Assembly (NCBI GenBank): GCA_964036195.1
Contig: OZ038452.1
Location: forward strand, 11,836,704 to 11,900,703
Direction: 5' to 3'
Source: Sphaerolaimus hirsutus
Lineage: Eukaryota > Nematoda > Chromadorea > Monhysterida > Sphaerolaimidae
DNA length: 64,000 nucleotides
Each line of letters starts with the position of its first letter. The stretch's first letter is position 1. Shown piece after piece: positions 2,495 to 64,000 of the stretch. The translations under genes were made by a program, and so were the position numbers. The notes beneath the pieces were generated by a model. That model saw nothing but the letters and a program-made list of their open reading frames with translations. It was not told the origin of the DNA and ran no database searches.

Positions 2495-3597
2495 TTTTGT
2501 TCCTGGTGCATAAAAGTCCGGAAAATGCACCTGAAGCTATTATAAGCTTAAGAATGTCCTCAAAAATGCACATGGTTAGATAGAGGGAGTGATCAACAGC
2601 ACAAAATTGTCAGAAAACATTCTCATATATATCCCATCTTAGAAGATATAGCAACATGAATGTGACACTGCTCATTCTGTGTTTCTCATGGTATGGGTCA
2701 AAAATATGCTCGCTGGATTACATCTTAAAACTGCACATTGCTGTTTTGAACTCTCTATCATACAGAAGACATTGAGGGTACCTAGGTGCACTATCTACAG
2801 CAAACCCTAATGATCTGGGAAAATTTGTTCTTAGGCCAAAAATGTTGATGATCAGATTCACCAAATTTTGTTCCTGAAAATGTAGAAAGTCTTTACGTTT
2901 TCATTTGGCCTGAGTACTTGATTAAACCAGACCCATATGTACTTTGCAAGTGATATGGTCATGTACCCTTAAGCATGCTACAGGTTATGCACTTATCTAA
3001 CTTCAGCTGTGTGTGATTTTAAATGATTTGTATGGCTGTTTTCATGTTGTAGTGCCAGTTCCTTGTGAGTACAGTTTTGTGTGGGTGTTCATTTATCATT
3101 GAAATCCCTATATTATCACTATATATAGATCTCTAACATCGTTTTTATACGTGTATTTCTCATTCCAAGAAACAAATGTTGATGATAAAGCTTTTTGTGG
3201 GCCATTATAGTGCCCCATTTCACTAACAAAGGCTACCAGATAATGGCAATCAATTGTGAAGACTTTTCATAAAAACATGACCTGAGAGTAAAATAGGATG
3301 ACGTTTTCTAGCATTTTGTGTTGATGATCACTCCTTCTATCTAACCTGAGCATTTTTGAGGGCATTCTTAAGCTTAGAATAGCTTCAGGTGCATAGGCGG
3401 CGCAAGGTCCCAATTTGTGCTTGTGACATTCACAATCACATTGGCCAAAATTTGACCTTGACACTTTTTACTAGGTAAACATAGGTATTTCTGCTTGTGA
3501 CACCGAAAATTCAGCTTGTGACATTCACAAGCGCACAAGCACCTACGCCGCCTATGTTCAGGTGCATTTTCCGGACTTTGATGCACCAGGAACAAAA
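2495..3597. mobile_element. Foldback element with about 130-bp inverted arms
   Basis: The left arm (from TTTTGTTCCTGGTGCAT, through AAGTCCGGAAAATGCACCTG, to AGATAGAGGGAGTGATCA near 2590) is inverted at 3325-3597, ending ATGCACCAGGAACAAAA. The right arm is split by the small MITE at 3392. The middle, 2600-3300, is unique and has no ORF of note. The superfamily is not assigned. Confidence 0.75.
3392..3556. mobile_element. Small hAT-type MITE (CATAGGCGGC), 165 bp
   Basis: The termini are CATAGGCGGCG and CGCCGCCTATG, with a perfect 8-bp TSD TTCAGGTG at 3384-3391 and 3557-3564. The interior has GCTTGTGACATTCACAA on both sides. A second copy is at about 39429-39593 and a right-end remnant near 29557-29577. 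Confidence 0.85.
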
Positions 3598-4886: not shown

Positions 4887-5045
4887 TAGGGTTGGCCGAT
4901 GTTTTTTTTTAAACGTTTTTTTTTTTTTTAACGTTTTTTTTTTTTTTTTAAACATGACGTCCGAAATGTTGTTTTTTTTTAAAAACATCGGCCGAAATTT
5001 TTAGTACTAAGCACTAGGTATTTTGCAAAATTTTTGCGCGCAAAG

Positions 5046-5393
5046 TTTTCAAATCCCAATCCCGATCCCGAGAAACTCCCAAGTCCGGGATCCCGATCCC
5101 GGAAAAATTAGTGGAAATTATCAAAAGTGAAATAATGACGTTTTTGCATGCAAAAAACTGGATGCAAACCCCCAGCGTCAATTTTATGCCACTTTTCTGG
5201 CATCCAACAGTGTTTTGAGACCTTTATGAACAACTGTAAATGTCAGAAAAATGGGCAAAATATCTATCCCTCGAACCCAATCCCGATCCCGGAAAAATGC
5301 CTATCCCAATCCCGATCCCGATCCCGTGACCCCAATCCCGGCCAATCCCGATCCCGATCCCGATCCCGAAAAGTCAATCCCGTTTGAACCCTA
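5046..5393. mobile_element. Fam3 (ATCCCG) MITE, left end deleted
   Basis: It is made of ATCCCG units and ends CGTTTGAACCCTA. It lies inside the Fam1 GCGCGCAA/GCGCGC palindrome. The left TIR and first array block are missing; the sequence starts at an internal Fam3 point (AGTTTTCAAATCCCAATC, also near 20909). The deletion also removed the left TSD. Confidence 0.8.
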
Positions 5394-20759: not shown

Positions 20760-21362
20760 TTGGGTTCAAACGGGATCCCGATCCCGATCCCGGATCCCGT
20801 GAAATTCCGGGATTTACCAGTCCCGATCCCGATCCCGATCCCGAAACCCCAATCCCGATCCCGATCCCAATCCCGAAATCTCAAAAATACCAATCCCGAT
20901 CCCGATCCCGAAAGTTTTCAAATCCCAATCCCGATCCCGAGAAACTCCCAAGTCCGGGATCCCGATCCCGGAAAAATTAGTGGAAATTATCAAAAGTGAA
21001 ATAATGACGTTTTTGCGTGCAAAAAACTGGATGCAAACCCCCAGCGTCAATTTTATGCCACTTTTCTGGCATCCAACAGTGTTTTGAGACCTTTATGAAC
21101 AACTGTAAATGTCAGAAAAATGGGCAAAATATCTATCCCTCGAACCCAATCCCGATCCCGGAAAAATGCCTATCCCAATCCCGATCCCGATCCCGTGACC
21201 CCAATCCCGGCCAATCCCGATCCCGATCCCGATCCCGAAATCTCAAAAAACCAATCCCGATCCCGATCCCGATCCCGAAACCCCAATCCCGATCCCAATC
21301 CCGAAATCTCAAAAAGTGAATCCCGATCCCGATCCCGAAAAGTCAATCCCGTTTGAACCCTA
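20760..21362. mobile_element. Fam3 (ATCCCG) hAT-type MITE, 603 bp
   Basis: It starts TTGGGTTCAAACGG (one change from TAGGG) and ends CGTTTGAACCCTA, with a perfect TSD GCTGCATT at 20752-20759 and 21363-21370. ATCCCG/GATCCC arrays flank a 200-bp core (GATGCAAACCCCCAGCGTCA). The DPDPDP and SRSRSR ORFs are translations of the array. Confidence 0.92.
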
Positions 21363-21398: not shown

Positions 21399-22083
21399 TA
21401 GGGTTGGAAAAAAAACGTTTTTTTTTAACTCGATGTTTTTTTTAAAAAAACAACGTTTTTTTTGATAAAAAAACGTTTTTTTTAAAAAGCTCCCAGATAT
21501 GACCTAGTGTCAACATATATAGGTATATCAGACACTGGCAATACTCTGTGATGTTAAATATGACCATATAATGGCTGTGGAGCCATGGGATAGCATTATA
21601 AGTGGTGATTTGTGTCAAAAATATCCATTTTTCGTCAACATATCGTTCGTATATCGCCTTATAGTCGAATGTTCGTGACTTCAGGTAAAGTTTGGCACGG
21701 AATGGTGATCAAACAAGGTTATAAAAGGAGGTTGTTACTTTGGGAGTGAAGTTACACACTGTGGAGGTACATGGAAGCACATTACCTCAATATTATATAT
21801 TACAGCAACATATGTCGGCTTATTCACCCATGGTAGCACATAGAAATGGATGTTTTGATACTAAAAATGCAACAAAACCAATGAAAACAACCACCAATGT
21901 CAATTTGTGTGAAATTGCGCGCTTGCGCGCAAAAATTTTGCAAAATACCTAGTGCTTAGTACTAAAAATTTCGGCCGATGTTTTTTTTAAAAAAAAAACA
22001 TTTCGGACGTCATGTTTTAAAAAAAAAAAAAACGTTTAAAAAAAAAAAAAAAAACGTTTAAAAAAAAACATCGGCCAACCCTA
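21399..22083. mobile_element. Fam1 hAT-type MITE, 685 bp
   Basis: The ends are TAGGGTTGG and CCAACCCTA, with a perfect TSD ATCCTGAC at 21391-21398 and 22084-22091. The uninterrupted site, CACTGATCCTGACACATGG, is present at about 49488-49506. Confidence 0.95.
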
Positions 22084-39673: not shown

Positions 39674-40310
39674 TAGGGTTGGAAAAAAAACGTTGTTTTT
39701 TTAACTCGATGTTTTTAAAAAAAAAAGTTTAAAAAAAAAAAACGTTTTTTTTTTAAAAGCTCCCAGATATGACCTAGTGTCAACATATATAGGTATATCA
39801 GACACTGGCAATACTCTGTGATGTTAAATATGACCATATAATGGCTGTGGAGCCATGGGATAGCATTATAAGTGGTGATTTGTGTCAAAAATATCCATTT
39901 TTCGTCGACATATCGTTCGTATATCGCCTTATAGTCGAATGTTCGTGACTTCAGGTAAAGTTTGGCACGGAAAGGTGATCAAACAAGGTTATAAAAGGAG
40001 GTTGTTACTTTGGGAGTGAAGTTACACACTGTGGAGGTACATGGAAGCACATTACCTCAATATTATATATTACAGCAACATATGTCGGCTTATTCACCCA
40101 TGGTAGCACATAGAAATGGATGTTTTGATACTAAAAATGCAACAAAACCAATGAAAACAACCACCAATGTCAATTTGTGTGTGAAATTGCGCGCTTGCGC
40201 GCAAAAATTTTGCAAAATACCTAGTGCTTAGTACTAAAAATTTCGGCCGATGTTTTTTTTTTAAAAAAAACATTTCGGACGTCATGTTTTTTAAAAAAAA
40301 ACAACGTTCT
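39674..40310. mobile_element. Fam1 copy inside Fam7, right end lost
   Basis: It starts TAGGGTTGGAAAAAAAACG and is collinear with 21399-22083 as far as TTTCGGACGTCATG. It then runs into GGCGCC array near 40310. Its high similarity to 883-1607 suggests a young copy. Confidence 0.85.
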
Positions 40311-46525: not shown

Positions 46526-47990
46526 GGGGAATCACAATAGAAGCAACCATTCCATCTCCTGCTGGCACATTTTCATTTCTTAGGTATATGTGACCTCAGG
46601 GATACCCCCCAAAAAATCTGTAGTTTCTGAAAGAGCAAATTCTTAGCTTTGCAACTGTGTGTGTCTACCCCCTTTCCGCAGCGACTGTTAAGGCATGAAT
46701 CACAATAGAAGTGGCCATTCCATCTCCTGCTGGCACGTTTTTGTTTCTTAGGTATATGTGACCTCAGGGATACCCCCCAAAAAATCTGTAGTTTCTGAAA
46801 GAGCAAATTCTTAGCTTCGCAACCGTGTGTCAACCCCCTTTCCGCAGCAACCATTAAGGTGTTTATTGCAATAGAAGCAGCCATTTCATCTCCTGCTGGC
46901 ACGTTTTTGTTTCTTAGGTATATGTGACCTTAGGGATACCCCCGAAAAATCTGTTAGTTCTGAAAGAGCAAATTCTTATCTTTGCAACCGTGTGTGTCTA
47001 CCCCCTTTCCACAGTGATGTTAAGGCTTGAATCGCAATAGAAGCAGCCATTTCATCTCCTGCTGGCACGTTTTTGTTTCTTAGGTATATGTGACCTCAGG
47101 GATACCCCCCAAAAAATCTGTAGTTTCTGAAAGAGCACATTCTTAGCTTCGCAACTGTGTGCGTCTACCCCCTTTCCACAGCGACCATTAAGGCGTGAAT
47201 TGCAATAGAAGCGACCATTCCATCTCCTGCTAGGGTTCAAACGGGATTGACTTTTCGGGATCGGGATCGGGATCGGGATTCACTTTTTGAGATTTCGGGA
47301 TCGGGATCGGGATCGGGATTGGGGTCTCGGGATCGGGATCGGGATCGGGATTGGTTTTTTGAGATTTCGGGATCGGGATCGGGATCGGGATTGGGGTCAC
47401 GGGATCGGGATCGGGATTGGGATAGGCATTTCTCCGGGATCGGGATTGGGTTCTAGGGATAGAGATTTTGGCCATTTTTCTGGCATTCACAGTTGTTCAT
47501 AAAGGTCTCAAAACACTGTTGGATGCCAGAAAAGTGGCATAAAATTGACGCTGGGGGTTTGCATCCACTTTTTTGCATGCAAAAACGTCATTATTTCACT
47601 TTTTATAATTTCCACTAATTTTTCCGGGATCGGGATCCCGGACTTGGGAGTTTCTCGGGATCGGGATCGGGATTTGAAAACTTTCGGGATCGGGATCGGG
47701 ATTGGGATTGGTATTTTTGAGATTTCGGGATCGGGATCGGGATCGGGATTGGGGTTTCGGGATCGGGATCGGGACTGGTAAATCCCGGAATTTCACGGGA
47801 TCCGGGATCGGGATCGGGATCCCGTTTGAACCCTATCTCCTGCTGGCACGTTTTCGTTTCTTAGGTATATGTGACCTTAGGGATACCCCCCAAAAAAAAC
47901 TTGTGGTTCCTGAAAGAGCAAATTCTTAGCTTCGCAACCGTGTGTGTCTACCCCCTTTCCGCAGAGACCGTTAAGGCGTGAATCACAATT
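46526..47990 (-). repeat. 167-bp satellite, about five units, inverted
   Basis: The same unit is in opposite orientation (CCATTCCATCTCCTGCTGGC at 46549, then 46717, 46884, 47050 and 47217). The Fam3 MITE at 47231-47835 splits the last one. The turning point is at about 46525-46548. Confidence 0.9.
47231..47835. mobile_element. Fam3 (ATCCCG) hAT-type MITE, 605 bp
   Basis: TAGGGTTCAAACGGGATTGA and GATCCCGTTTGAACCCTA are flanked by a perfect TSD TCTCCTGC at 47223-47230 and 47836-47843. It is closely similar to 20760-21362 in the opposite orientation, including the core. Confidence 0.93.
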
Positions 47991-59726: not shown

Positions 59727-60306
59727 GCAAGGGCACGGTTGAAAAAAACGTTTTTTTAACGCCATCTTTTTGTAATAAAAAACAACGTTTTTTTAATTTA
59801 AATCGTTTTTTTTAAACAACGTTTTTTTTAAAAAGCTCCTATATATGTTCCTGGGTCAACATATATAGGTACATATCAGACAAGTGACAATACTCTGTGA
59901 TGTTATATATGACCATACAATGGCTGTGGAGCGATGGGATTGCATTATAAGTGGTGATTTGTGTCAAAAATGTCCATTTTTTGTCGACATGTTCATATAT
60001 CGCCTTATAGTCGAATGTTCGTGACTTCAAGTGAAGTTTGGCTCGGAATAGTGATCAAACAAGGTCATAAAAGGAGGTTGTTACTTTGGGAGTGATGTAC
60101 ACAGTGTGGAGGTACATGAAAGCACATTTACCTGAATATTATATACTACAGCAACATATGACGGCTTATTTACCCATGGTAGCACATAGAAATGGATGCT
60201 TTGATACTAAAAATGCCACAAAACCAATGATAACAACCACCCATGTCAATTTGTGTGTGAAATTGCGCGCTTGCATGCAAAAATTTTGCAAAATACCTAG
60301 TGCTTA
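59727..60306. mobile_element. Fam1 copy interrupted by the LTR element
   Basis: It is collinear with Fam1 from GGTTGAAAAAAACG to AATACCTAGTGCTTA, then stops at the LTR start. The remainder should lie beyond the retrotransposon, outside the window. GCTTA (60302-60306) is the likely 5-bp target duplication. Confidence 0.8.
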
Positions 60307-60911
60307 TGTTATGCCATTTTGTAGGCATTTATTTCTCTATATTTCTATTCATTTTCTTATGGTAGGTGTTTGAATGCAACGTAAGTGTTCGCTCGCCCAT
60401 GTAGTTTCCCCCCCATGCGCCGCTCTATTGTTTTAGGTGCCCTATGTATTTGCGTATGCACTATGTACTCGCGCGCCGTGGAACGTTGCGTCGCGGCGGT
60501 TTTTTAGGTGTTCGTTTTGCGTGCGCTATGTATTCATGTATGCGTTGTGTACTCGGCGCCGTGTAGTAAACTGTTTGGCGCCATTCTATTGTGACATTTT
60601 TGGGTAGGTATCCCCCCATATCTTGTGTATGTCCAGCCGATATTTTGAATCGGCTGGCAGTCAATGTTTTCGCTATTTCCGCGTGAATATTTTCTCTTTT
60701 TTCCCGACCTATGTTATTAAGTATTCCACCCAATTTCTACTATTATTATGAACCGATTTAGCTAAATAAACAGCACCGGTTCTGAATTTGGACCCTGGAA
60801 TTCATTTTGGCACTTGCTCGCGCACTTTCAAAGAGTGTAATTAGGGCCGCTGTCTAATAAACCAACCCCCACCAAGCAATCTTCAATGACCGCAACTGCG
60901 CGGTCATTACA
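60307..60911 (+). mobile_element. 5' LTR of a Ty3/gypsy-like retrotransposon, 605 bp
   Basis: It starts TGTTATG exactly where Fam1 is broken and ends CATTACA, so the termini are TG...CA with 6 of 7 inverted bases matching. A primer-binding site follows directly. AATAAA occurs at 60765 and 60857. A 9-bp hairpin (CCAGCCGAT and inverse, loop ATTTTGA) is at 60633-60657. The partner LTR is outside the window, so the limits rest on the edge of Fam1, the TG/CA ends and the TGG. Confidence 0.85.
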
Positions 60912-60929
60912 TGGTGACTGTACTGGGAG
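60912..60929 (+). promoter_or_regulatory. Primer-binding site for minus-strand synthesis
   Basis: TGGTGACTGTACTGGGAG directly follows the LTR. TGG pairs with the CCA end of a tRNA, and the rest is of tRNA 3'-end form, with C at the first base of the T-stem strand. I cannot name the tRNA. Confidence 0.7.
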
Positions 60930-61937
60930 CTATTAATTTAGCTCCCATCAATCGACCCCAGGCCTCCTGTTCGCCCGGCCGTGCGGAAAAAATTCCGCCG
61001 CGTTTTCGTGCTGCGGGACTTTAGCGACACGCGTCGCTCCCGCCCGGCCGGCCGCTTGTCAGCCACTGGGGCTGCGCGGCCAATTTCGCTTTGATCAGCC
61101 ACTGGGGCTGATCGTTTCTCGCGTCGCTTTGCCACTGGGGCTAGCGACATTCCGGCGACGCTTCGCGCTGTTTTTCGACTCGACCAGCCACTGGGGCTGA
61201 TCGTTTCTTCGCGTCGCTTTGCCACTGGGGCTAGCGACATTTCGGCGACGCTTCGCGCCGTTTTTCGACTTGACCAGCCACTGGGGCTGATCGTTTCTTC
61301 GCGTCGCTTTGCCACTGGGGCTAGCGACATTCCGGCGACGCTTCGCGCCGTTTTTCGACTCGACCAGCCACTGGGGCTGATCGTTTCTTCGCGTCGCTTT
61401 GCCACTGGGGCTAGCGACATTGTGCCAACGCTTCGCGCCGATTTTTTCGACTCGATCAGCCACTGGGGCTGACCGAACTGCAGTTTTTCCACTGTGCCAC
61501 TGGGGCCGGCGGAATGCCATCATCAATCAGATCAGCCGCTGGGGCTGACCGAAAAAAAATCGTTTTTTGTTGCTGAGCCACTGGGGCCAGCGACAACGTT
61601 TTTTTGATCTACCTGGCCACTGGGGCCAGGTAGAGTTGATCGGTAGGGCGCTGGGCCCTGTTTCTGTGGGGCGCCGCACCGAGGTTTCATTTTTCTTGTG
61701 CCGCACACCCACACGCGGTCGCAGGGCGCCACTGGGGCACCATTTGTGCAGGGTGCCACACGGTGTTGAATTTTGGCGCGGTGCCAATTGCTGCACGCGC
61801 TTGAATTCATATTGATTCTGGGTCATTTTGGCACCTACCTGCCTTATTGAAACTCCAGTTGTGTTTGGTCACTCCTGCACCATCTGTGCACGTCAGTTGT
61901 GCTTGTGCAGATTTAGTGACTCCTCACATTTTCCGAC
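60930..61937 (+). other. Untranslated leader with a hairpin array
   Basis: The leader of about 1.0 kb between the PBS and gag holds 16 hairpins that share the loop (A/G)CTGG. Loops begin at 61065, 61101, 61134, 61190, 61224, 61280, 61314, 61370, 61404, 61462, 61499 (weak stem), 61538, 61580, 61619, 61650 and 61731. Stems differ but mostly pair: CTACCTGGCC with GGCCAGGTAG at 61609-61633, and GATCAGCC with GGCTGATC at 61093-61113. The 143- and 184-codon minus-strand frames are by-products of the repeat. Confidence 0.75.
61085..61470 (+). repeat. 90-bp tandem repeat, about 4.3 units, in the leader
   Basis: Each unit carries one hairpin with a GACCAGCC or GATCAGCC stem and one with a GTCGC...GCGAC stem. 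Loop spacing is 89-92 bp within each type (61101, 61190, 61280, 61370, 61462 and 61134, 61224, 61314, 61404). Downstream hairpins (61499-61735) are outside the tandem array and have unrelated stems. Confidence 0.9.
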
Positions 61938-64000
61938 ATGTCGCAATATACGCGAGCGGAACTGGAGCCGGTAGTTGAATCATGGATGGACGAGCCCGTG
62001 GACAGGCCAAAATTGTTGCGCCTGCTAAATGTGCTAATGCAGTTTCGCGTTAACGATGGCGAGTGGCCCACGATTAGCGATCCGCCCCGCCTAGGAACTG
62101 GGCGATTGATCCAGCATGTGTGGAAGTGCATGGACCTGTATTTCACAGATCCAGATACTATCGTGGAATTGGTCCTCGACCTTGAAGATCAAGTACCGCC
62201 CAGAGGCATTGGGAACGACCCCATGCCGCCTCAAGGCGTTGCGGTCTCCCAACCACCTGTGGCGCTGACTGTGGACAACCTTTTGCCTGTTCTCCAGCAA
62301 CTGCTATCTAGCAATCCGGCATTTGTCCAACAATTTACTTCATCGTCAGTGCAGGCGCACACAGCACCAGTGCAAAACGTGCCCGTGGGGACGCAATCGA
62401 TACCGGCGCCTGGCACAATCAATCGCTGTCCATCAAGGACCTCTTCCGCTTCTACGGACCAGTTGGTCGATTCAACTGAAGCTAGGCTGCAGGCCATTTC
62501 ATTGTTACCTGGTGGTTTGATTGGTCAAATTGCTGCCTACATTGACCAATATGTCATGGTACCGGCCGATGGTTTTCCGTCCCTCGTGGATACGCTGGGG
62601 CAATTGTCGTCTCGCGATCGCATGGGCGGTGGCCATGTGGCCAACGTAGCCAGCAAGCAAACACCGTTCAATGGGGATTCGAGCGCGCCGTCGGGGCCAT
62701 TTAAATTTTGGCTTCACAATGTGGCGCTACAGGCTCTGAATGTCCCGCCGGCATACCAACACTTGTTTTGGACTAATGTGTTCCAACAGTGCCTGAAAGG
62801 TAGTGCCCAGGATCACTATGCATCTATCCGCCTGGACAAGCGTAATTCAATACTCTACGTTCTGGACAAGTTGGCACGTGTGCATCGTCTCGACCGCAAG
62901 GCGCATTCGGTTGCCGAGTGGTATAGAATTTCTGCTAAATCTTCTGATACGGTGTCTTCCCTGTACCGCAAGCTGTGCAGCTCGTTCCACTATATCAGCG
63001 AGCAAATCGACGATTCACAACGCGAGAAAATGATTGGGGATAAATTATTCCTCGAAGTCGAAGACATGGTGCCGACAATGTGTTGGTATCGCTGGCGCGA
63101 CAAATGGCGGGACGGTGAGATCGAGTTAGCCGACGCTGTTAGTCGCCTCGATATTGCCCGCGAGGAAAACTCGCATCGCCATGTTGAACAGAATAAAAAT
63201 CGCAATACTAATTGGAAGCCAAAGTCGTCAACGGGCAGAAATGCTGGCTGGGGCAAGACTCCATCGGCTGAAGCTGCATTGCGAAGCGCCCCAGGCCGAT
63301 CTAATGGCCAGAAAGGCGGTTGGGATAGGCAGTCTAAATTTGACCCGACGACACATCAGGGTCCATGGTGCACCTATTTTTTGCATTGTGCACCCATGCC
63401 GCACGAGCCGGCGAAATGTTTTTTGAATCCGGCGTCGCCTGCCTACCAACTGGATCGGGCTGAACGGGCCCGAGAATTTTTGGAAAAGGCTGGCAAAACC
63501 AAGCACGACGCTCGGGAAAGGATGCGCACTGAGTGTAAAAAGCTCAACCTGACATTTGATGAGCAAATTTACAGCGCTCCGGAATCAGATAATGAATCTG
63601 CTAAAAATCCGGCTACAAAATTGACTAAAAATGTGTCTAATCCATCATCTGATTCCGAGCCCGAGCCCGATTTTGAAACGTGGTTCCCTAGCGGCTATGC
63701 AGCTCACAAGCAGATGGGTTGCGCCATGAACCCACCAAGCATGCGACACGCCCGCTGTGATCGCCCGCTGGCCAAAGTGGATTTCATGGGCTGCACGCTC
63801 ACAGGCACACTTGATAGTGGCTGTGAGGAGGGGATCATCATCGAGGAGCATCTGCTCGAGGATGTATGGAAACGCGCACAGTGCAATGCCAGCACAGAAA
63901 AGGCAAAGTACCGGCCATACCCTGATTCAGGTTTGGGGACTACTGGCGAGCCAATTCCGGGACATCACCTGGCACTCTACAAAATGCATTTGCTGCATAC
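61938..64000 (+). CDS. gag-pol: Gag-protease polyprotein, open at window end
   Basis: The frame starts at ATG 61938, after an in-frame TGA at 61917, and stays open for 687 codons to the window edge. Residues about 240-390 look like a retrotransposon Gag core (TPFNGDSSAPSGPFKFWLHN, then FQQCLKGSAQDHY). A basic, Asn/Gly/Trp-rich stretch follows at 420-470. Next is one zinc-knuckle-like motif: C478, C484, H489, C494, that is CX5CX4HX4C rather than CX2CX4HX4C. A Ser/Glu/Asp-rich linker leads to a retropepsin-like site with the catalytic triplet Asp-Ser-Gly at 626-628 (TGTLDSGCEEGII). Gag and protease share one frame without a shift. Reverse transcriptase, RNase H and integrase should follow outside. 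It is uninterrupted, so probably young. Ty3/gypsy is inferred from the layout; BEL/Pao is the alternative. Confidence 0.85.
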   Translation, partial: MSQYTRAELEPVVESWMDEPVDRPKLLRLLNVLMQFRVNDGEWPTISDPPRLGTGRLIQHVWKCMDLYFTDPDTIVELVLDLEDQVPPRGIGNDPMPPQGVAVSQPPVALTVDNLLPVLQQLLSSNPAFVQQFTSSSVQAHTAPVQNVPVGTQSIPAPGTINRCPSRTSSASTDQLVDSTEARLQAISLLPGGLIGQIAAYIDQYVMVPADGFPSLVDTLGQLSSRDRMGGGHVANVASKQTPFNGDSSAPSGPFKFWLHNVALQALNVPPAYQHLFWTNVFQQCLKGSAQDHYASIRLDKRNSILYVLDKLARVHRLDRKAHSVAEWYRISAKSSDTVSSLYRKLCSSFHYISEQIDDSQREKMIGDKLFLEVEDMVPTMCWYRWRDKWRDGEIELADAVSRLDIAREENSHRHVEQNKNRNTNWKPKSSTGRNAGWGKTPSAEAALRSAPGRSNGQKGGWDRQSKFDPTTHQGPWCTYFLHCAPMPHEPAKCFLNPASPAYQLDRAERAREFLEKAGKTKHDARERMRTECKKLNLTFDEQIYSAPESDNESAKNPATKLTKNVSNPSSDSEPEPDFETWFPSGYAAHKQMGCAMNPPSMRHARCDRPLAKVDFMGCTLTGTLDSGCEEGIIIEEHLLEDVWKRAQCNASTEKAKYRPYPDSGLGTTGEPIPGHHLALYKMHLLH

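Follow-up and report, generated by a model that had tools for sequence, protein, structure and literature searches.

A row of hairpins with one constant (A/G)CUGG loop in the sense leader of a Ty3/gypsy-type retrotransposon clade of Sphaerolaimus hirsutus

A retrotransposon bounded by long terminal repeats (LTRs), lying at the end of a 64,000-nucleotide stretch of the nematode Sphaerolaimus hirsutus genome (GCA_964036195.1, contig OZ038452.1), carries in its leader sixteen copies of a hairpin with a single loop sequence. This stretch, hereafter the window, corresponds to C3:11836704-11900703, where C1, C3, C7 and so on are contig labels, and copies were searched for in a genome of 348,482,957 bases and 762 contigs. 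Matches to collagen-type exons number 137 in this genome and suggest an animal, although the same family was also matched in three bacterial controls. The hairpin array is a selected, RNA-level feature of the sense leader, from the primer binding site (PBS) to gag, in one Ty3/gypsy-type clade of this genome. In each hairpin, an (A/G)CUGG loop tops an inner stem that is nearly always GCC/GGC, below which the outer stem varies; some hairpins also have a single nucleotide bulged out three pairs down from the loop. Selection on the hairpin as RNA is well supported. We infer that some partner reads the loop, which is probably a handle gripped by something that handles the element RNA. The element's own Gag is the partner tentatively favoured below, and the primer tRNA is its most serious competitor.

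In the window copy, the sixteen (A/G)CTGG loops closed by C-G are found between the PBS and gag at 61065-61735 (first bases 61065-61731), and every coordinate that the earlier note had given for them agrees with the sequence. The pattern CCRCTGGGG occurs 15 times in the window against 0.65 expected, always on the + strand and always within 61063-61737; the one remaining loop (61650) is flanked by GC/GC and hence lies outside this pattern. The stems singled out in the same note were recovered as well: eight of eight pairs at 61093-61113, GTCGC with GCGAC at 61123-61148, ten of ten pairs at 61609-61633, the stem at 61645-61659, and TTGTTGCTG with CAGCGACAA around 61580. The statement that the stems mostly pair is right, though pairing is not complete throughout: an A.C mismatch occurs in five of them (61190, 61280, 61370, 61462 and 61538). 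Local folding in pieces of 125 nucleotides (nt) gives the loop-closing pair a probability P>0.7 in 15 of the 16 hairpins. The global minimum free energy structure of 61040-61760 (z -7.26 against 20 shuffles) joins tandem copies to one another rather than building each local hairpin, and the centroid retains few hairpins; the hairpins of the window are therefore local predictions. A tandem duplication of 90 bp accounts for about half of the copies, as had been proposed. No Rfam family reached its gathering score in the 64-kb window. The features of the array are the following, class I having an uninterrupted register and class II being interrupted, three pairs down from the loop, by a single unpaired nucleotide in the 5' arm.

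61096..61472, + strand: 90-bp tandem duplication, 4.2 copies, containing 9 of the 16 hairpins (tandem repeat search)
61050..61081, + strand: hairpin 1, loop ACTGG at 61065-61069 (local fold P 0.99)
61093..61113, + strand: hairpin 2, class I, 8/8 pairs, loop 61101-61105 (local fold P 0.99)
61123..61148, + strand: hairpin 3, class II, internal loop below GCC/GGC, loop 61134-61138 (local fold P 0.96)
61182..61202, + strand: hairpin 4, class I, one C.A mismatch, loop 61190-61194 (local fold P 0.99)
61213..61238, + strand: hairpin 5, class II, loop 61224-61228 (local fold P 0.73)
61272..61292, + strand: hairpin 6, class I, mismatch, loop 61280-61284 (local fold P 0.92)
61303..61328, + strand: hairpin 7, class II, loop 61314-61318 (local fold P 0.96)
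61362..61382, + strand: hairpin 8, class I, mismatch, loop 61370-61374 (local fold P 0.99)
61393..61418, + strand: hairpin 9, class II, loop 61404-61408 (local fold P 0.96)
61452..61476, + strand: hairpin 10, class I, mismatch, loop 61462-61466 (local fold P 0.99)
61487..61514, + strand: hairpin 11, class II, bulged U, loop 61499-61503 (local fold P 0.97)
61530..61550, + strand: hairpin 12, class I, mismatch, loop GCTGG at 61538-61542 (local fold P 0.99)
61567..61596, + strand: hairpin 13, class II, bulged A, loop 61580-61584 (local fold P 0.97)
61608..61634, + strand: hairpin 14, class I, 10/10 pairs or more, loop 61619-61623 (local fold P 0.99)
61645..61659, + strand: hairpin 15, class I, AGGGC/GCCCT, loop GCTGG at 61650-61654 (local fold P 1.0)
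61728..61738, + strand: core 16 (61731), only a 3-bp stem in the window copy, extended to 10 pairs in locus L129 at position 3540 (local fold P 0.0)

The array is not confined to this copy. The genome contains 1061 exact GCCACTGGGGC cores, whereas the reversed pattern occurs 53 times. Loci were fetched from 12 clusters on C1, from the stretch downstream of the window, from 57 places matching GCCGCTGGGGCTG and from three single-core places. All 12 clusters and 37 of the 57 GCCGCTGGGGCTG places bear an array, which amounts to 50 loci with the window included; no array was present at the other 20 GCCGCTGGGGCTG loci or at the three single-core loci (L199-L201). Six loci without an array (L143, L147, L150, L180, L190 and L197) have RCTGG cores that fall at two closely matching positions and probably represent a separate repeat family. 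The 50 leaders contain 525 hairpins, from 4 to 20 per leader with a mean of 10.5, which reduce to 188 unique 29-mers: 121 of class I, 63 of class II (the unpaired nucleotide being U in 40, A in 22 and G in 1) and four judged weak and kept out of both classes. Neighbouring hairpins are most commonly 30-45 nt apart, and the two classes tend to alternate, 102 of 166 neighbour steps switching class in 19 leaders that each represent one leader cluster. A loop-blind census, applied to loci themselves found via the core, collected hairpins of at least eight pairs with any loop of 3-8 nt. Among the 94 unique hairpins with a 5-nt loop, 67 have RCTGG and nine more are one step from ACTGG (ATTGG in five), whereas no loop is prominent among the 339 hairpins of a first-order Markov control; the RCTGG loop is therefore not an artefact of having searched for it. 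Across copies, local folding gives P>0.5 in 89% of 185 hairpins, against 7.6% with shuffled flanks. A scan of viral contigs for paired cores was not used, the rate among the matches listed being close to chance by estimate.

Constraint is concentrated on the loop and the inner stem. Before the 19 representatives were aligned in pairs, the 11-nt cores were masked to keep them from anchoring the alignment, and a strict orthologue set was retained in which each flank is at least 75% alike; its 341 hairpin comparisons share sequences and are not independent. In this set, 16.5% of spacer positions are changed. Loop position 1 is changed in 15.5% of comparisons, position 2 in 4.4% and positions 3-5 in 1.5, 1.2 and 0.9%, and the figures for the stem are 1.0% in the inner three pairs, 3.7% in pairs 4-6 and 7.6% in pairs 7 and beyond. 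Equal mutation of loops and stems, the outcome that the earlier note had named as fatal to its proposal, is thus not seen. At position 1, 338 partner loops out of 341 have a purine (A or G), and the remaining three (CACTG twice, CCATT) look misaligned. With a looser flank cut-off of 0.65 (511 comparisons), loop positions 3-5 are changed in 2.2-3.3% and spacers in 21%. A first, loose alignment had given 10-13% for loop positions 2-5 against 25% for spacers; misaligned pairs were suspected and the cut-off was then tightened. The order of constraint is identical under all three criteria and the contrast shrinks when they are loose. Comparisons with a gap in the core (7 in the 0.65 set and 3 in the 0.75 set) and those with an identical flank pair were left out.

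The stems covary strongly between deep types and weakly on short branches. For the covariation scores, hairpins were chosen to differ from one another, and the class of each was set by its better-pairing register, which slightly favours pairing. In class II (30 of the 63 unique hairpins), 89.7% of cells are paired and the score is 0.443, against 0.202 for shuffled and at most 0.094 for slid arms; in class I (29 of 121), 76.3% are paired and the score is 0.449, against 0.172 and at most 0.183. Neither score was reached in any of 500 shuffles. Eight of ten pairs are changed on both sides in class II; in class I, the pairs changed on both sides (8) show no excess over shuffles (211 of 500). Larger sets of unique stems (82 of class I, 38 of class II) exceed all 500 shuffles in six of nine class I pairs and in five of nine class II pairs, one further class II pair being above all but 2 of 500. 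Single changes in pairs 3-6 yield G-U more often than A.C (58 vs 27). In a count by stem family, 6 of 23 families retain five or more of the six outer pairs, where 1.5 would be expected; the maximum over 2000 shuffles was also 6. The claim of a constant loop on covarying stems is supported by the 50 genomic copies, but compensatory double changes are few among close relatives. The protein partner of the earlier note is a candidate, and an RNA partner such as the primer tRNA would fit too.

The strand on which the leader avoids start codons points in the same direction. The expectation was derived at first from single-base composition and then from dinucleotides. On the latter basis, ATG occurs 7 times on the sense strand of the array in the 19 representatives where 129 are expected, an 18-fold depletion, and 7 times against 117 in the leader after the array. 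The antisense strand has 107 against 180 in the array (1.7-fold) and 118 against 153 after it, and the first 600 nt of gag have 191 against 296. TAC is likewise low in the array (15 vs 53 expected). Because ATG is depleted on the sense strand, the leader behaves like a scanned 5' untranslated region, which supports a function of the sense RNA. Two candidate reading frames were rejected. An antisense frame of the window copy measures 184 amino acids (aa) from its start codon and 193 aa from stop to stop, and ranges from 87 to 254 aa over the 50 loci; in the window, a repeat unit of 90 bp, being divisible by three, is enough to keep it open. In copies with ..ACA before the PBS, the LTR/PBS junction (window 60911) creates an AUG, and the small upstream frame that starts there is not conserved in length, with 37 codons in the window copy and between 8 and 146 in another 11 copies.

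The host of the array is a 5.1-kb LTR element extending from 60307 to about 65420, with an LTR pair 99.5% identical (blastn). Its 3' LTR lies at about 64813-65420, beyond the end of the window, and corresponds to positions 917-1524 of locus L141. The parts of the element found in the window are these.

60307..60911, + strand: 5' LTR (TGTTATG...CATTACA), 99.5% identical to L141 917-1524 by blastn, ends read by eye
60912..60929, + strand: PBS TGGTGACTGTACTGGGAG, 18 nt complementary to a tRNA-like 3' end in the genome
61938..63998, + strand: gag open reading frame, continuing to about 64544 beyond the window, a single open frame filling the interior of the element

The gag frame ends near 64544 and the 3' LTR begins near 64813, leaving no space for pol, so the window copy is gag-only; gag without pol between two LTRs is the arrangement of a non-autonomous element of this kind. 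The same PBS, with 0-3 mismatches, follows the LTR end ..ACA in 48 of 49 copies. Pattern matching located the tRNA-like 3' ends GTTCGACTCCCAGTACAGTCA and GTTCGACTCCCAGTACGATCA in the genome; the window PBS matches those at C1:14346147 and C7:25400145, and a second PBS form, present in other copies, fits one at C1:5159516. Two LTRs, the tRNA-like PBS match and the order of reverse transcriptase, RNase H and integrase place the element with Ty3/gypsy, the pol order being taken from a piece of an autonomous relative, as the window copy has no pol. A protein search with the window gag returned no homologue, and a Pfam scan of it returned no family above cut-off. Near residue 625 of the frame stands a protease-like DSG motif, LTGTLDSGCEEG, without a Pfam match. 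A CCHC knuckle in the window Gag was rejected as a family feature, since its second cysteine is R or H in nine other copies (L135 ends upstream); a C-x4-H-x5-H-x4-C motif is kept in all ten copies readable there. Against window 60307-63998, five copies (L132, L133, L160, L186 and L192) have gag stretches 94-99% identical and LTRs 77-83% identical, and this sequence comparison suggests that LTR/leader and gag modules may have recombined between copies. Elsewhere in the window, a dispersed repeat of about 450 bp occurs at 987-1445, 21502-21960, 39772-40230 and 59848-60306, and by our own reading the LTR element appears inserted in the last of these copies, after GCTTA. Short repeats of the CCCGATCCCGATCCCG type are present on both strands at 5042-5341, 20911-21210 and 47386-47709.

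Array and gag accompany each other throughout the copies. Gag follows the array in sense orientation at a distance of 132-647 nt in 49 of the 50 array loci, and in the fiftieth (L155) a gag match is found 250 nt past the end of the fetched stretch; 48 of 49 loci examined have a PBS 112-201 nt ahead of the array. In the reverse test, 14 of 155 gag matches (47-98% identity) were picked by hand with hairpins disregarded, and 13 of them carry four or more RCTGG cores (4-11), some on short stems. The exception, L224, is a 47% match in a short frame. Arrays are still present where gag identity falls to 48-61%. No RCTGG array was seen in ten distant gag relatives (29-33% identity, or 43-58% over part of the protein) within the 1.3-1.4 kb that precede their estimated gag starts, with the limit that no PBS was found in five of them, so that their leaders may be incomplete. 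Among the loci fetched, seven array-bearing copies (L129, L170, L213, L214, L215, L218 and L219) have one frame of 2411-2492 aa, and a piece from L226, the same copy as L129, encodes reverse transcriptase, RNase H, integrase zinc-binding and integrase core domains in Ty3/gypsy order. Since the copies with this long frame carry the array too, it is common to autonomous and gag-only elements.

Other hairpins were noticed in three of the ten distant leaders, loci L208-L210. Six sister hairpins (sense-oriented sites 215 and 310 in L208, 360 in L209, and 61, 171 and 339 in L210) have a near-constant outer stem, CGCTAGTG/CACTAGCG, and an inner stem varying in step (GGGC/GCCC, TGGC/GCCA, GAGC/GCTC), a pattern of conservation that is the reverse of that of the RCTGG arrays. 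Their loops, with the register set by eye, are of A-Y-N-N-N type (ACACG twice, ACGAA, ACTGG, ACCGG and ATTGA). Around the PBS of L206 and L207, which are distant relatives, many GAGCGGC/GCCGCTC repeats in the LTR and leader could make further hairpins.

The reading that we favour, with a confidence slightly short of an even chance, is that the element's own Gag binds each hairpin with low affinity and that the array is a packaging mark usable by gag-only copies. Weak binding to a single hairpin is predicted to add up over a row of 4-20 to a high avidity, by which the genomic RNA would be singled out for packaging. The window element and other gag-only copies would then be packaged too, autonomous relatives with the same leader providing the Pol. 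Gag is preferred as the partner for three reasons: the array and gag accompany each other, packaging of gag-only copies requires help, and multivalent loop motifs have been proposed to work in this way in small RNA viruses (PMC3593212, PMC7612645 and PMC6281560). Several observations weigh against it. The loop is the complement of a primer tRNA segment, a property not needed in a site for Gag. The Gag itself lacks a canonical CCHC knuckle and has acidic and basic residues in roughly equal number. Double changes between near neighbours kept pairing in 8 cases and broke it in 17; those in the outer pairs of orthologues kept it in 10 and broke it in 19 in the strict set (42 and 32 in the looser one), much of the broken fraction being a recurrent change from G-C to U.U. 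The excess of GU over AC expected of an RNA is missing in pairs 7-9 (87 to 92). Lastly, two stem families comprise most stems.

The strongest rival to Gag, and a serious one, is the primer tRNA. The loops could pair with it as a row of partial PBS mimics that gathers or opens the tRNA, in the manner of the primer activation signal (PAS) of HIV-1 or the bipartite PBS of Ty3, an explanation that we consider rather unlikely. ACUGG and its closing G are complementary to CCCAGU, that is the 3' strand of the T-stem and nucleotide 66, of the tRNA-like 3' ends that match the PBS. This match was noticed post hoc, and a 5-mer hits an 18-nt PBS in about 1.4% of cases by chance (an estimate), before other possible partners are counted. 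The tRNA-like 3' ends, at three places and of two kinds, fit the two main PBS forms over 18 nt, and an 18-nt match is present in all 12 gag-picked loci, out of 14, in which a PBS was found; five of the ten distant, array-less loci match the same 3' end over 12-14 nt and the other five have no PBS found, but the length of the match is confounded with phylogeny. The loop tolerates chiefly two changes, G for A at position 1 and U for C at position 2, which would preserve wobble pairing with U66 and G65, and the U, G and G of positions 3-5 hardly vary. CCCAGT is absent from the 19 leaders (0 vs 5.6 expected), whereas CCAGT is not depleted (15 vs 19.1). Contacts of the T-arm beyond the PBS have been described for HIV-1 and Ty3 (excerpts of PMC3675109 and PMC5371799, respectively). 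Here, however, the PBS occupies the same tRNA bases, so the loops would compete with it, and pairing alone leaves the fixed GCC/GGC inner stem and the recurrent bulge unaccounted for. An elaborate version, in which the array is a multivalent primer-tRNA trap (4-20 PBS-like ACUGGG segments facing the T-stem) that couples primer capture to packaging and is kept by gag-only parasites to use the machinery of autonomous relatives, we regard as unlikely.

A Smaug/Vts1-type RNA-binding protein of the host, or another hairpin reader, could act on the loops to repress or stabilise the RNA. A constant loop on a variable stem suits such a protein, and CUGG outperformed other CNGG forms for Smaug; the Smaug recognition element, however, requires CNGG at the first loop position (excerpt of PMC4053848), and here a purine precedes it that is unable to pair with the following G. 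The loop being R-CUGG, the register does not fit and this element was rejected. Isolated cores on C1 are moreover near chance (8 of the 100 places listed, over about 25 Mb, against about 4 expected from the reversed control), so no wide use in host genes is visible on C1, and a host reader appears improbable. The chance is slighter again that the array acts on translation by slowing scanning ribosomes and so setting the balance between gag translation and packaging. The depletion of sense ATG from the array to gag fits a pressure for scanning, and stems of up to 10-15 pairs stand in the scanning path, but any stem would serve and the constant loop is left unexplained. An array of protein sites at the DNA level, comparable to the insulator that Su(Hw) binds in the Drosophila gypsy leader, would suit the position between PBS and gag and a copy number similar to the 12 sites of gypsy. 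The covarying arms, the gradient of constraint centred on the loop, the single orientation relative to gag and the preference for GU over AC in pairs 3-6 argue against it, with the caveat of the bias missing in pairs 7-9, and we consider it highly improbable. Equally remote, and already disfavoured, is a neutral repeat spread by tandem duplication, its stems kept through descent alone. The 9 of 16 window hairpins in the 90-bp tandem array and the predominance of two stem families agree with it, but in the same comparisons the spacers are 16.5% changed against about 1% for loop positions 3-5 and the inner stem, and arrays persist at a gag identity of just 48-61%.

The way in which LTR retrotransposons choose their own RNA, and its sharing between gag-only and autonomous copies, is poorly known outside yeast. 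The array is a short, easily synthesised RNA with which a partner could be sought, present in both kinds of copies and not seen in the distant relatives sampled. With Gag as the partner, this retrotransposon leader would contain a multivalent packaging signal; with the tRNA, it would represent a new route of primer loading. Retroviral psi and leader signals are similarly structured RNA near the PBS and gag, but comprise a few distinct stem-loops where 4-20 copies of one hairpin are found here. The gypsy Su(Hw) insulator is likewise a repeat array in a Ty3/gypsy 5' leader; its sites are in duplex DNA and are not known to show hairpin covariation, in contrast to the covarying flanks described above. 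TR-GAG elements have LTRs and gag without pol like the window copy. The papers listed on TR-GAG elements deal mostly with plants; the present genome has collagen-type exons, and the leader array is an addition to the TR-GAG plan. Dispersed stem-loops with a short common loop motif, AXXA in satellite tobacco necrosis virus (STNV) and RGAG in hepatitis B virus (HBV), have been proposed as joint sites for capsid protein (PMC3593212, PMC7612645 and PMC6281560). Such packaging signals of single-stranded RNA viruses and HBV resemble the present hairpins in their shared loop motif, but are scattered over the genome, whereas here a compact array with an almost fixed loop sits in one leader. In the HIV-1 PAS and the Ty3 bipartite PBS, parts of the genomic RNA beyond the 18-nt PBS pair with the T-arm of the primer tRNA, a contact that the loops here may resemble (excerpts of PMC3675109 and PMC5371799); the PAS is a single site on tRNA nucleotides 48-55 (excerpt of PMC3675109), and here many loops match bases that the PBS covers. 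The Smaug recognition element shares the CUGG hairpin loop and the non-specific stem, with CNGG first in its loop and second here (excerpt of PMC4053848). In searches of the open-licence PMC literature, no hairpin array in the leader of an LTR retrotransposon was described among the papers listed. A structured retroelement leader is of a known kind, and its construction as an array of one repeated hairpin appears to be new.
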